A stretch of 35,090 nucleotides of DNA from Mariprofundus ferrooxydans PV-1 (GTDB lineage Bacteria; Pseudomonadota; Zetaproteobacteria; Mariprofundales; Mariprofundaceae): contig NZ_DS022294.1 of the NCBI RefSeq assembly GCF_000153765.1, positions 495,451 through 530,540 on the forward strand. The letters run 5' to 3'. The notes beneath the pieces were generated by a model. The model was not told where the DNA came from and made no database searches. It saw only the letters and a list, made by a program, of their open reading frames with translations. Positions within the stretch are counted from its first letter, which is position 1, and every line of letters begins with the position of its first letter. The position numbers and the translations under genes are program-made. Shown piece after piece: positions 7,839 to 34,157 of this stretch.

Positions 7839-7864
7839 GAGGCTGTAAATTGAACTGTGTAAAT
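7839..7864 (+). repeat. Left terminal inverted repeat of the IS256-family element
   Basis: These 26 bases match the complement of 9127-9152 at 22 positions. The match shares CTGTAAAT at positions 5-12 and CTGTGTAAAT at the inner end. It begins directly after the left target duplication. Confidence 0.88.
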
Positions 7865-7898
7865 GCTTTACTCAGCAAGAACTGAGGAAGGAGCATTT

Positions 7899-9119
7899 AT
7901 GAAGAAGAATGAGAAACGAAACGAGCTTGAAGCGATTGCCCGTGAGCTGGCGAAGCACGTCAAGACCGAAGAAGATTTGTCTAATCTGAGCCGAGACCTG
8001 GTGAAGATGACAGTTGAGGCGGCGCTTGGTGGAGAAATGGAAGCACATCTGGGCTATGCCCCGAGCGAGCGCAGCGATTCATCTAACAGCCGCAATGGTT
8101 ATTCAACCAAGCGCCTGATTGGTGGGCACGGTGAAGTCGAGATTGAGGTCCCCCGGGATCGTCATTCGAGCTTTGAGCCTCGTATTGTGGAGAAGGGCCA
8201 GAGTCGTCTGACGCAATTTGATGATCAGATTCTGGCCTTATATGCCAAGGGCATGAGTACACGGGACATTGTGGCCGCATTTAAGGAGATGTACGGCGCC
8301 GATGTTTCTGCCGGATTGATTTCCAAGGTAACCGAATCTGTACTGGAACGGGTTGTTGAGTGGCAGAACCGTCCACTGGATACTCTGTATCCGATTCTGT
8401 ATCTGGACTGCATCGTGGTGAAGATTCGCCAGGATAAGCGGGTTCTGAACAAGGCCATCTATATTGCCTTGGGCATCAATCTTGAGGGCGAGAAGGAAGT
8501 TCTCGGTCTTTGGCTGTCCGAGAACGAGGGTGCGAAGTTCTGGCTTTCAGTGCTGACGGAGCTGAAGAACCGGGGTATGCAAGATGCCTTTATCGCCTGT
8601 GTGGACGGCCTGACGGGCTTTCCGGACGCCATCAACGCGGTGTTCCCGCAAACGAAGGTGCAGCTATGCATCGTGCACATGGTGCGCAACGCCTTGCGCT
8701 TTGTTGCCTGGAAGGATCGCAAGCACGTGGCTACGGATTTGCGTAGGATTTACCAGTCGGTCACTGTGGAAGAAGCTGAACGGGAGTTGGATATCTTTGC
8801 TGAGAAATGGGATGGAAAATATCCGTCCATCAGCATCATGTGGCGCAGGCATTGGCCAAATCTGATCACGATTTTTGAATATCCTGATGAGATCCGCAAG
8901 GTCATTTACACGACCAATGCGATCGAATCGCTCAACAGCGTGATTCGCAAGGCCATCAAGAATCGCAAGGTATTCCCAAACGATCAGGCGGCCATGAAGG
9001 TCGTCTGGCTGGCCATCGAGGCTGCGGCCAAAAAATGGACCATGCCCATTCGCGACTGGAAAGCCGCACTGAACCGCTTTATGATCGAGTTTCCGGATCG
9101 AATGCCGGAGAGAATCTGA
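7899..9119 (+). CDS. IS256-family (mutator-type) transposase
   Basis: The start is ATG 7899, chosen for AAGGAG six bases upstream; the frame is open 12 codons further without a ribosome site. The 406-residue product has the usual IS256 family length. It shows the N-terminal 'AALGGEMEAHLGY' and 'RNGYSTKRLIGGHGEVEI' segments, then an RNase H-like core with the likely DDE residues Asp170 ('LYLDCIV'), Asp236 ('ACVDGLTGFPDAI') and Glu343 ('TTNAIESLN'). The 'QLCIVHMVRNALRFV' motif between them is also typical. It catalyses cut/copy transposition of the element through the 26-bp ends. All residues appear intact, so it is probably active. Stop codon and right terminal repeat are only a few bases apart. 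Confidence 0.96.
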   Translation: MKKNEKRNELEAIARELAKHVKTEEDLSNLSRDLVKMTVEAALGGEMEAHLGYAPSERSDSSNSRNGYSTKRLIGGHGEVEIEVPRDRHSSFEPRIVEKGQSRLTQFDDQILALYAKGMSTRDIVAAFKEMYGADVSAGLISKVTESVLERVVEWQNRPLDTLYPILYLDCIVVKIRQDKRVLNKAIYIALGINLEGEKEVLGLWLSENEGAKFWLSVLTELKNRGMQDAFIACVDGLTGFPDAINAVFPQTKVQLCIVHMVRNALRFVAWKDRKHVATDLRRIYQSVTVEEAERELDIFAEKWDGKYPSISIMWRRHWPNLITIFEYPDEIRKVIYTTNAIESLNSVIRKAIKNRKVFPNDQAAMKVVWLAIEAAAKKWTMPIRDWKAALNRFMIEFPDRMPERI

Positions 9120-30779: not shown

Positions 30780-30848
30780 ACACTCCTGATTGCCAGCCGC
30801 AGACCAACGAGCGGCTGAAAGCCGGGAATATTATCAATGGAGGAACAC

Positions 30849-31394
30849 ATGAAAAAGAAGGAGCAGAACAACGGCCTGAGAATGATTCTATTCTATTTAA
30901 CATGCGCCGTTGTTGTCGTGATAATGCTATTCGGAGGTCTGCTTTTTACCAAAGCACACATTGTCTCAGGCGTTACCCACAACAATCAGACCGAGCTAAA
31001 TGAGGCTATCAACTTTCACAAGCTGAACAACTCCGTCCGGGGCCAGATGCCGGGTATTATGGATACGGTAAAAAAAGACCCTAACGACATATACTCCAGC
31101 TCAGCCATTATCAACAGCAATCACCCGAACATCACTGTCACACCGGAAAACGTTGTAGAGCTGATGATCAAGACCTCGATCGCAAAAAAAGATGCAGATG
31201 GCTCCGTTTCATTCAATGACTTTGACATGAGCAGAGAATCCCTCTCCTACTCCAGGCTGAGCCTGAAGTTTGTCAGCAAGACCAACAAGGATGACTGGTT
31301 CACCACCGTCATCGCCAAGGATGGCAGCGTATTGGTCTGGAAGGTCAATGCTGTATTCCTCTCCCCGTCACTGCTGGATAAATTGCTACAGTAA
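30849..31394 (+). CDS. Unrecognised single-span membrane protein
   Basis: I do not recognise this protein. ATG 30849 is preferred because GGAGGA lies just upstream, although an in-frame ATG at 30837 exists. The 181-residue product has a short basic N-terminus and one membrane segment (about residues 11-34). A hydrophilic, presumably periplasmic domain follows, rich in Asn, Ser and Lys, with 'TPENVVELMIKTSIAKKDAD' near 114-133 and a beta-like C-terminal part ending 'LSPSLLDKLLQ'. It has no cysteine pairs or catalytic signature. It is an isolated single-gene unit with its own candidate promoter and a strong terminator. Confidence 0.8.
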   Translation: MKKKEQNNGLRMILFYLTCAVVVVIMLFGGLLFTKAHIVSGVTHNNQTELNEAINFHKLNNSVRGQMPGIMDTVKKDPNDIYSSSAIINSNHPNITVTPENVVELMIKTSIAKKDADGSVSFNDFDMSRESLSYSRLSLKFVSKTNKDDWFTTVIAKDGSVLVWKVNAVFLSPSLLDKLLQ

Positions 31395-31412: not shown

Positions 31413-31453
31413 AAAGGGGCCGAACGAAATCATTTCGTTCGGCCCCTTTTTTT
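31413..31453 (+). terminator. Strong intrinsic terminator after the membrane-protein gene
   Basis: A perfect 17-bp stem (AAAGGGGCCGAACGAAA at 31413-31429, complement at 31433-31449) has a three-base loop and is followed by a T-run to 31453. It is 18 bp downstream of the stop codon. Confidence 0.95.
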
Positions 31454-31664: not shown

Positions 31665-32039
31665 ATGCCATATACAAATATTTGGGAGCCTCGTGGCCTG
31701 CACTGGATGTTCTCAGGTGAAGTAAGTGGGGATGAGATTTTTGAATCAAACCTCGAGTTACATACAGATATCCGATTTAAAGGGATTCAATATATTATTA
31801 ATGATTTCTCAGGAGTAACAGATCACTCAATAGACCTGGGACATACGGAAGTCTATGCATCAACAGATAAGATAATATCTAAAACTAAACATACACTTGC
31901 AATCGCTCTGGTTGTACCTCAAGCACACTTTTTTGATTTAGCAAAAAACTATTGTGACCTCATGAGAGGACAAACGTTCGAATGTAATATTTTTCAGACA
32001 GTTGAGGATGCACGAAGTTGGATTAGCAAGTCTGAATGA
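31665..32039 (+). CDS. Unrecognised 124-residue protein, AT-rich gene
   Basis: I do not recognise this family with confidence. AAGGA precedes ATG 31665 at suitable spacing. The 124-residue product has no signal peptide or membrane span. It is an alternating alpha/beta-looking protein ('FKGIQYIINDFSGVTD', 'HTLAIALVVPQAHFFDLAKN'), a pattern resembling SpoIIAA/STAS-like folds; that is a guess from style. The gene is clearly more AT-rich than neighbouring genes and uses codons such as AGA and ATA more often, suggesting acquisition by transfer or low expression. It is followed by the repeat array. Confidence 0.7.
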   Translation: MPYTNIWEPRGLHWMFSGEVSGDEIFESNLELHTDIRFKGIQYIINDFSGVTDHSIDLGHTEVYASTDKIISKTKHTLAIALVVPQAHFFDLAKNYCDLMRGQTFECNIFQTVEDARSWISKSE

Positions 32040-32140: not shown

Positions 32141-32403
32141 CTTTTCAGTTGCTATCGCGTAATCTAAAACCACACCCGTGGCTTCGTTTCCTTCACACTA
32201 TCGCGCAGCTTTAAGCCATCCCCATGGCTCAGGTTTCAGGCTTTTCAGTTGCTATCGCGCAATTTAAAGCCACACCCGTGGCTTTGGTTTAAAGCCTTCC
32301 AGTTGCTATCGCGCAATTTAAAGCCACACCAGTGGCTTCGGTTTTAAATCTTTTCAGTTGCTATCGCGCAAATTGAAGCCACACCCGTGGCTTCAATTTG
32401 CTT
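32141..32403. repeat. Tandem array of five ~50-55-bp hairpin repeats
   Basis: Five units begin near 32141, 32191, 32241, 32295 and 32350, a period of 50-55 bp. The unit starts CTTTTCAGTTGCTATCGCGC, continues AATTTAAAGCCAC, ACCC, GTGGCTT, and ends in a variable T-rich stretch of about 10-15 bases. The second unit is degenerate; units 3-5 are nearly identical over about 40 bases. Each has an inverted repeat AAGCCAC/GTGGCTT around an ACCC-like loop. In the last unit this grows to a perfect 15-bp stem (32368-32382 with 32387-32401). No T-run follows, and the array ends 1-2 bp from the pntB stop codon. Confidence 0.9.
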
Positions 32404-32404
32404 G

Positions 32405-33802
32405 CTAATCCAGTGATTGGAGCATGGTTTCACATGCTTTCTTCGCATCGGCAAACAACATCATCGTCTTGTCCATGTAGAACAGGTCGTTATCCAGCCC
32501 AGCATAACCTGCGGCCAGGGAGCGCTTGATCACAATGACATGCTCGGCCTTGCCCACTTCAAGAATCGGCATGCCGTAAATCGGACTGGATGGGTCGGTC
32601 TTGGCTGCCGGGTTGATCACATCATTGGCCCCGATCACCAGCACCACATCGGTATCGGAAAACTCCGGATTAATCTCATCCATCTCGTAGACGATATCAT
32701 AAGGCACATCGGCTTCGGCCAGCAGCACATTCATATGACCGGGCATGCGTCCGGCTACCGGATGAATGGCAAACTTCACGTTCACATCCATCTTGAGCAA
32801 CACATCCACCAGCTCCTTGAGTGCATGCTGGGCTCGCGCCACGGCCAGACCATATCCCGGCACAATTACAACCGAACGCGCATTTTTCAGCAGAAAGACC
32901 GCATCCTCCGCCGCACCACTGTGTACCGGCCGCTCACCAACAGATCCGCCGCCGGCAGCCGCAGCCTCTCCGCCAAAACCGCCAAGCAGCACGCTAAACA
33001 ACGAACGGTTCATCGCCTTACACATGATATAGGAGAGGATCGCACCGGATGAGCCGACCAGCGCACCGGCCACAATCAACATATTGTTGCCCAGCGTAAA
33101 GCCGATGCCGGCAGCCGCCCAACCCGAATATGAGTTCAGCATCGATACGATCACCGGCATATCCGCGCCGCCAATCGGCACAATCAGCAACACGCCCAGC
33201 ACCATAGCCACCGCCAGCATAATCAGAAACGGCGTCATACCCTGGGTCACGCAGAACAGAATACCGGCAGCGATCATCACCAGACCCAGCACCAGATTCA
33301 GCCAGTGCTGGCCACCAAAGACCAGCGGCTTGCCGGAGAGTAAGCCCTGCAGTTTACCGAAGGCGATCAGCGAAGCGGTAAAGGTAATTGCACCAATAAA
33401 TGTACCGAGAAACAGCTCAATGCGACTGGCCGGATAAAGTCCGCCATGTGCATCAGCAATGCCATAGGATACCGGGTCAATAAAAGCGGATACCGCAATC
33501 AGCACGGCCGACAGACCCACCAGCGAATGCATAAAGGCCACGGTTTGCGGCATATGCGTCATCGGCACCTTGCGCGCAGTCACACCGCCGAAGAGTCCTC
33601 CGACAGCAAGCGCGGCCACAATCCATGCATAATTTTGCACGGAGTCCAGCTGCAGCGTTACCAGCGCGGCAATACCCATGCCGAGCATACCGAAGAAGTT
33701 ACCGCGACGAGCGGTTTCCGGACTGGCCAGCCCCTTCAGGGCAAAAATAATCAGTACGGATGCAATGAGGTAGGCCATAGCCACCATATTTAAAGACAGC
33801 AT
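32405..33802 (-). CDS. pntB: NAD(P) transhydrogenase subunit beta
   Basis: PntB is the membrane and NADP(H)-binding subunit of the proton-translocating transhydrogenase, which uses the proton gradient to make NADPH from NADH. ATG 33802 has an AGGGG site inside the end of pntAb and leaves one base between the genes. The 465-residue product has about nine membrane segments in the first ~270 residues. Domain III follows, with 'VVIVPGYGLAVARAQHALKE', 'VPYDIVYEMDEIN', 'VIGANDVINPAAKTDPSSPI' and 'IKRSLAAGYAGLDNDLFY', all NADP-site motifs. The hairpin repeat array touches its 3' end. Confidence 0.98.
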   Translation of the reverse strand: MLSLNMVAMAYLIASVLIIFALKGLASPETARRGNFFGMLGMGIAALVTLQLDSVQNYAWIVAALAVGGLFGGVTARKVPMTHMPQTVAFMHSLVGLSAVLIAVSAFIDPVSYGIADAHGGLYPASRIELFLGTFIGAITFTASLIAFGKLQGLLSGKPLVFGGQHWLNLVLGLVMIAAGILFCVTQGMTPFLIMLAVAMVLGVLLIVPIGGADMPVIVSMLNSYSGWAAAGIGFTLGNNMLIVAGALVGSSGAILSYIMCKAMNRSLFSVLLGGFGGEAAAAGGGSVGERPVHSGAAEDAVFLLKNARSVVIVPGYGLAVARAQHALKELVDVLLKMDVNVKFAIHPVAGRMPGHMNVLLAEADVPYDIVYEMDEINPEFSDTDVVLVIGANDVINPAAKTDPSSPIYGMPILEVGKAEHVIVIKRSLAAGYAGLDNDLFYMDKTMMLFADAKKACETMLQSLD

Positions 33803-33803
33803 A

Positions 33804-34157
33804 TCAGCCCCTGGAACGTTTCTTGAACATGGCCAGCATACGCTGGGTAACCATGAATCCACCGAAAATATTCACCGCCGCCAGGCCCACGGCAATCAGG
33901 CCAAGCACGGTAGCCAGACTCATCTCCACAGGACCTGCCGCCAGCAGCGCACCGACAATAATGATACTGGAGATAGCATTGGTTACACTCATCAATGGCG
34001 TATGCAGAGCCGGCGTCACATTCCAGACCACGTGGTAGCCTACAATCACGGCCAGCACGAACACCGTGAAAGAAAAAACAAACGGGTCCACAGCGGCATG
34101 TGCCGCATGGCCCGTAGCAGCCTGCGCTACAGCCTGTGTCATCTCTGGCGCACTCAT
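33804..34157 (-). CDS. pntAb: NAD(P) transhydrogenase subunit alpha, part 2
   Basis: This 117-residue membrane subunit corresponds to the C-terminal part of E. coli PntA and is a separate protein in three-subunit transhydrogenases. It has three to four membrane segments and the conserved '[20 protein letters not shown]' and '[13 protein letters not shown]' motifs (about 40-72). Its ATG overlaps the pntAa stop by four bases, and GGAGGAG is the ribosome site. The split arrangement excludes the fused enterobacterial PntA type. Confidence 0.96.

Follow-up and report, generated by a model that had tools for sequence, protein, structure and literature searches.

REPs are short, mostly extragenic hairpins that often lie near gene 3′ ends, carry compensatory stem variants and occur in clusters; they sometimes supply the TAG stop or the C-terminal residues of a gene, and their superfamilies are defined by a GTAG or CGTC tag that stays unpaired next to the hairpin at one end (PMC3733652). 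A genome usually holds more than 100 copies (PMC2817692). In E. coli, TnpA-REP recognises single-stranded REPs with a bulge (PMC8266576), and REPs lying no more than 15 nt from a stop codon are reported to stall ribosomes and so to bring about cleavage of the mRNA (Liang 2015, as cited in PMC12306157). Enterobacterial BIMEs consist of several tandem hairpins between genes, with REP and iREP alternating. Two other systems are comparable in part: the Rickettsia palindromic elements (RPEs), which insert within ORFs and add codons to them (as cited in PMC3733652), and integron attC sites, which form hairpins past gene ends.

The hairpin repeats described here, next to pntB in Mariprofundus ferrooxydans PV-1, are REP-like by behaviour and fall outside the GTAG and CGTC superfamilies described so far. 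They represent one site of an apparently undescribed hairpin family of the iron-oxidising genus Mariprofundus, and we are highly confident that this family is genus-wide and conserved in structure.

A tandem array at the 3′ end of pntB

The window (the whole stretch of 35,090 nucleotides analysed, G000:C4:495451-530540) belongs to a 2.99-Mb genome in four contigs. A preliminary description had placed a tandem hairpin array against pntB, and a repeat search, TRF and a covariance model all bore this out, giving five head-to-tail units at 32152-32406. The unit length, put at 50-55 bp in that description, needed correction: the units are 46-55 bp, with CTATCGCG starting at 32152, 32198, 32252, 32306 and 32361 (spacings 46, 54, 54 and 55). 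There were four occurrences of CAGTTGCTATCGCGCAA at three or fewer mismatches, against a mean of 0.13 in shuffled sequences, none of which reached four. All five units were matched by the covariance model on the minus strand (E = 1.8e-15 to 7e-4). The features of the locus are listed below, with units numbered in the sense of the element.

32405..33862, minus strand: pntB, NAD(P) transhydrogenase subunit beta (NCBIfam), with the array at its 3′ end
32405..32407, minus strand: pntB stop codon TAG (ORF and translation); its AG doubles as the start of AGCAAG
32360..32406, minus strand: unit 1, complete ('primary'); covariance model R1 72.4 bits, E = 1.8e-15, perfect inverted repeat, fold
32406-32401, minus strand: AGCAAG of unit 1
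32400-32387 with 32382-32369, minus strand: 14-bp stem of unit 1
32386-32383, minus strand: loop GGGT of unit 1
32368-32361, minus strand: CGCGATAG of unit 1
32306..32360, minus strand: unit 2, 55 bp; A-rich spacer, 8-9-bp core hairpin, right arm and CGCGATAG, without a matching left arm
32252..32305, minus strand: unit 3, 54 bp; core hairpin, right arm and CGCGATAG; covariance model 35.4 bits
32198..32251, minus strand: unit 4, 54 bp; hairpin intact, arm sequence different
32152..32197, minus strand: unit 5, 46 bp; farthest from pntB
31665..32039, plus strand: convergent 124-aa ORF with no Pfam or NCBIfam match; its end and that of pntB enclose the array

The best and only NCBIfam match of pntB is NF006974 (E = 1.3e-169, positions 2-460 of 460), at 565 bits and so below the curated cut-off of 689. 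Like pntB, the element has its sense on the minus strand, so each unit reads as a hairpin followed by CGCGATAG. The perfect 15-bp stem reported beside the pntB stop codon is present (inverted repeat 32368-32382/32387-32401), but the unit that holds it, originally taken as the final one, is the first. This stem is made of 14 perfect base pairs and one closing pair, begins 3 nt past the stop codon and folds at -26.7 kcal/mol (z = -5.5). The four units downstream, which fold more weakly (z = -2.2 to -1.1), retain just an 8-9-bp core together with the right arm and CGCGATAG. Unit 4 had been called decayed; it has diverged, yet it keeps an 8-bp stem and CGCGATAG.

A CRISPR was rightly dismissed from the start, as the whole unit is repeated and the spacers resemble one another rather than being unique. 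The array shares with enterobacterial BIMEs its several tandem hairpins between genes. Unlike BIMEs, its five units all have one orientation (minus), and arrays elsewhere are same-sense in a scan of the strand of the complete unit. None of the five units has GTAG or CGTC at its foot.

The plus-strand end of the convergent ORF (32019-32030) reads TGGATTAGCAAG, identical to the end of pntB on the minus strand (32401-32412). This stretch is possibly a relic unit; it folds no better than its shuffles. Elsewhere in the window, a mutator-family transposase gene is found at 7863-9119 (plus strand).

Distribution across the genome and the genus

With nucleotide BLAST, the array gave strong matches in its own genome only at pntB, and weak, palindromic ones in relatives; a covariance model (R1, built from twelve complete units of twelve genomes) was therefore needed. 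The search of own and related genomes that had been proposed as a check found the unit at dispersed loci. R1 matched the own genome at least 24 times at about ten loci or islands (pntB and about nine more), short of the copy number usual for REPs; all copy numbers are lower bounds, with 150 first-look candidates scored per genome. Other complete or near-complete units are at C4:1426364, C3:597756, C3:80075, C3:409777, C4:375320 and C2:33808-33946, a unit-bearing toxin-antitoxin island lies at C4:771-777 kb, and a short form occurs at C4:1465932. Some of these units follow genes that we take, by eye and not by profile, to be glnD-, dinG-, sensor-kinase- and apbE-like.

Twenty of the 23 Mariprofundus genomes have matches at E ≤ 0.1, including all sixteen of good quality, and the element also matches public contigs named Mariprofundus. 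Among other genera of the family, matches were found in 3 of 48 genomes; two of the three are arrays in another Mariprofundaceae genus that start exactly at the CCA end of tRNA-Leu(GAG) (L104, L105). Plasmids gave no match. In viral contigs the full pattern was absent, with one chance 17-mer match lacking the hairpin, and an Alcaligenaceae match to the genome pattern was discarded as chance, its arms not being complementary. No Rfam family matched above its gathering score, in keeping with the initial impression that no named family was involved, and a literature search covering mostly papers outside subscription returned none on Mariprofundus repeats or REPs.

Arrays at some loci are near-identical, as chance or an assembly duplication of one unit could produce. 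The preliminary description had named the latter as one finding that would take away the novelty. The comparative data refute this explanation, to which we attach practically no credence: the same period and anatomy recur at many loci of twenty independent genomes, and shuffled sequences do not yield the array. The same description had proposed a locally amplified, dispersed palindromic element of REP/BIME type. Dispersal over other loci of the genome and genus and local array amplification both hold; a BIME in the strict sense does not, as orientations do not alternate.

The pntB site itself is seldom occupied. Among 19 informative genomes with pntB orthologues, only G000 and G009 have the element there and the other 17 lack it, so it is gained and lost.

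In two islands of toxin-antitoxin-like genes, L131 (G006:C30) and L153 (G000:C4:771-777 kb), the genes are separated by repeats of ~150-300 bp containing the hairpin with TGCGATAG. Hairpins past gene ends, with some units between toxin-antitoxin cassettes, resemble integron attC sites. We rejected this identity: the RYYYAAC/GTTRRRY (R/L) boxes are absent from the units by inspection, and no unit was found at integrase loci of the genus. IntI scored above cut-off in seven of the 23 Mariprofundus genomes (L211-L217), the own genome not among them. The gene beside the L211 integrase is followed by an attC-looking sequence.

Position at gene ends

A same-strand stop codon is overlapped or abutted by 36 of the 62 complete units, compared with an opposite-strand stop for 4 of 62 and with 2 per cent of random positions. 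A stop was counted when it ended an ORF of 100 codons or more on the unit's own strand and fell within -3 to +13 of the unit's first base. The 36 units include many mutual orthologues and so are not independent; judged by eye, about thirteen different genes are involved. The stop codon sits inside the left arm in many units. Like RPEs, these are palindromes that add codons to genes; RPEs, as cited in PMC3733652, insert within ORFs, whereas the Mariprofundus units stand at the gene end, overlapping the stop.

There are exceptions to this placement. Units also occur inside toxin-antitoxin islands, and in about a dozen genomes the element stands between what we take, by eye, to be groEL and ppiD, antisense to both. 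This intergenic array is conserved (e.g. L154 at about 5800, L113, L120, L127) and lies beside an ordinary groEL terminator.

Placement on the same strand immediately behind genes, or behind tRNA-Leu in another genus, together with the strong stem, could indicate a non-canonical transcription terminator or a 3′-end processing signal that works without a U-tract. We consider this very unlikely. The array lacks T-runs, as first described: each stem is followed by CGCGATAG instead, so an intrinsic terminator was rejected. Canonical hairpin-T terminators are present both after groEL and within the window, where one with a long stem and T-run follows ORF 30837-31394 (31413-31449, plus strand). Moreover, some units lie between apparently co-directional neighbours, presumably purK/purE and tig/clpP (named from sequence by eye), and there are only about ten loci per genome (a lower bound).

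Less probable still is an array of protein-binding sites in DNA, serving nucleoid or chromosome organisation, which had also been among the initial options. Nothing favours it beyond the invariant foot motif, with CGCGATAG in every window unit, and the conserved groEL/ppiD array of about a dozen genomes. Copies are few, and neither the strong bias to the sense strand and to stop codons nor compensatory pairing is expected of a double-stranded site.

Pairing in the stem and the foot

In the sense of the upstream gene, the consensus of a complete unit is 5′-A(G/A)CAA(G/A), a 14-15-bp stem, a GGGT-type loop and (C/T)GCG(A/T)TAG-3′. The flanks A(G/A)CAA(G/A) and (C/T)GCG(A/T)TA are present in 61 of 61 units collected with that motif, and it is these, rather than GTAG or CGTC, that distinguish the family from REPs, as do the near-perfect stem of 14-15 bp and arrays that run head to tail with a single complete unit, the first. 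The position of CAAG directly against the stem raised the possibility of an IS91-type CAAG target.

Across the alignment of twelve units, both sides change in 11 of the 14 pairs, and 99.4 per cent of cells are paired, compared with 74.5 per cent when shuffled. In the 61 complete units, 766 of 793 stem positions are Watson-Crick, fourteen are G.T and thirteen are mismatched, a mismatch rate that is an underestimate because the set was chosen partly by pairing. A better test of pairing than this set is the orthologous site at the end of dinG, where nine genomes have the element. There, left-arm bases of the lower stem differ by 3.2 of 6 on average, and the lower pairs are Watson-Crick in 54 of 54 cases; when arms are swapped (the left of one orthologue against the right of another), only 47 per cent pair.

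The two sides of the foot, which look unpaired, also change together: A-G-CAAG occurs with CGCG-A-TAG in 56 of the 61 units and A-A-CAAG with CGCG-T-TAG in five, with no mixed cases, though independent A/T events are few because most A/T units are dinG orthologues. The pair next to this W/R position is G-C in 45 units, G-T in ten and A-T in six. With this co-variation, the stem in effect runs beyond 14 bp into the internal-loop motif. G.T pairs outnumber A.C mismatches by 12 to 6, or 12 to 3 once the spurious unit L142 is dropped, and the loop-closing pair in the twelve-unit alignment is C-G, T.G or T-A, never C.A. Both observations favour folding of the sense strand, which may occur as RNA or as single-stranded DNA; the count is small.

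Arrays of partial units

Twenty-four of the 61 complete units are followed by a total of 42 partial units, mostly at a 44-47-bp period and all 3′ and same-sense in a scan of the 3′ side on the same strand. Each consists of a core hairpin, right arm, CGCGATAG and A-rich spacer, and the left arm is never regained. The right arm of a partial unit matches that of its own primary unit at 4.0 of 6 positions and those of others at 2.35 of 6. Local tandem duplication, adding partial units 3′ of the complete unit at each site, would be the simplest account of these sequences. At L072 (G002:C39), a long array past a sensor-kinase-like gene mixes the right-arm types CAGGTAC and CATGATG, which suggests a higher-order duplication.

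A possible role at the stop codon

For a family that is dispersed, oriented in the sense of the upstream gene, overlapping with stop codons, maintained in its pairing and extended in directional arrays, we tentatively propose an mRNA hairpin at the stop codon, which may plausibly affect translation of the upstream gene, mRNA decay or both. The proposal draws on the analogy with E. coli REPs near stops. An mRNA 3′-end stabiliser had been one of the initial options, and it is possible in this refined form. The hairpin would act in mRNA; at a distance of no more than 15 nt from the stop codon, it would hinder the terminating ribosome, lowering yield or causing mRNA cleavage, and/or would block 3′-5′ exonucleases, and the extra hairpins of an array would strengthen the block. 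Units at pntB and elsewhere share with the stop-codon-proximal E. coli REPs (Liang 2015, as cited in PMC12306157) a hairpin no more than 15 nt from the stop in the sense orientation. They differ in sequence, and the effect on ribosomes shown in E. coli would apply here by analogy.

Several observations limit this proposal. In many units the left arm includes the stop codon, and a ribosome terminating there would melt part of the stem. The strand bias is drawn from a small count, and units at orthologous sites are not independent cases. At the groEL/ppiD site the element is antisense to both neighbours, which no mRNA role can account for, and no single gene needs the element, because most orthologous gene ends lack it, as at pntB.

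The main rival, which we regard as somewhat doubtful, is a purely selfish mobile hairpin of MITE/REP-like kind, without host function, which is non-autonomous and depends on a transposase acting in trans to move it as single-stranded DNA; gene ends would be tolerated insertion sites and arrays would arise from replication slippage. Presence at orthologous sites is patchy, as this rival would have it, and a structure-specific single-strand enzyme, of which TnpA-REP is an example, would select an invariant foot with coupled changes. However, old sites have changed in sequence and kept perfect pairing, which requires upkeep that a dead insertion would lack, and no target-site duplication was identified. 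The RAYT/TnpA-REP partner of REPs was not found either: no unit lies within about 1.5 kb of the twelve Y1-transposase loci examined (~50 further Y1_Tnp matches in the genus lie outside this sample), and the single-contig genome G011 has several element loci and no Y1_Tnp match. Copying driven by a reverse transcriptase was rejected, with no RVT_1 match in the own genome, G011, G007 or G020. The own genome has a RAYT-like Y1 transposase gene (L035, G000:C3:568545) with its own flanking inverted repeats, GGTCAGGCATGAGTTATTGAG, which are unrelated to the hairpin family.

It is also conceivable, if unlikely, that the element has a protein partner of its own, which recognises the folded foot A(R)CAA(R)/(Y)GCG(W)TAG and either sets hairpins exactly at gene 3′ ends or maintains them there, whether at stop codons or at tRNA CCA ends. 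Such a system would be REP-like, but its tag would be new, and so would its mobiliser or regulator, which would have no relation to RAYTs.

The Mariprofundus hairpins extend REP-like elements to the Zetaproteobacteria; their tag is different and they have no obvious RAYT, which tests whether RAYTs are required for such elements. Their coupled foot changes, same-strand stop overlap and directional arrays provide a clean natural data set for asking whether hairpins at stop codons are kept for the sake of translation or are selfish DNA.
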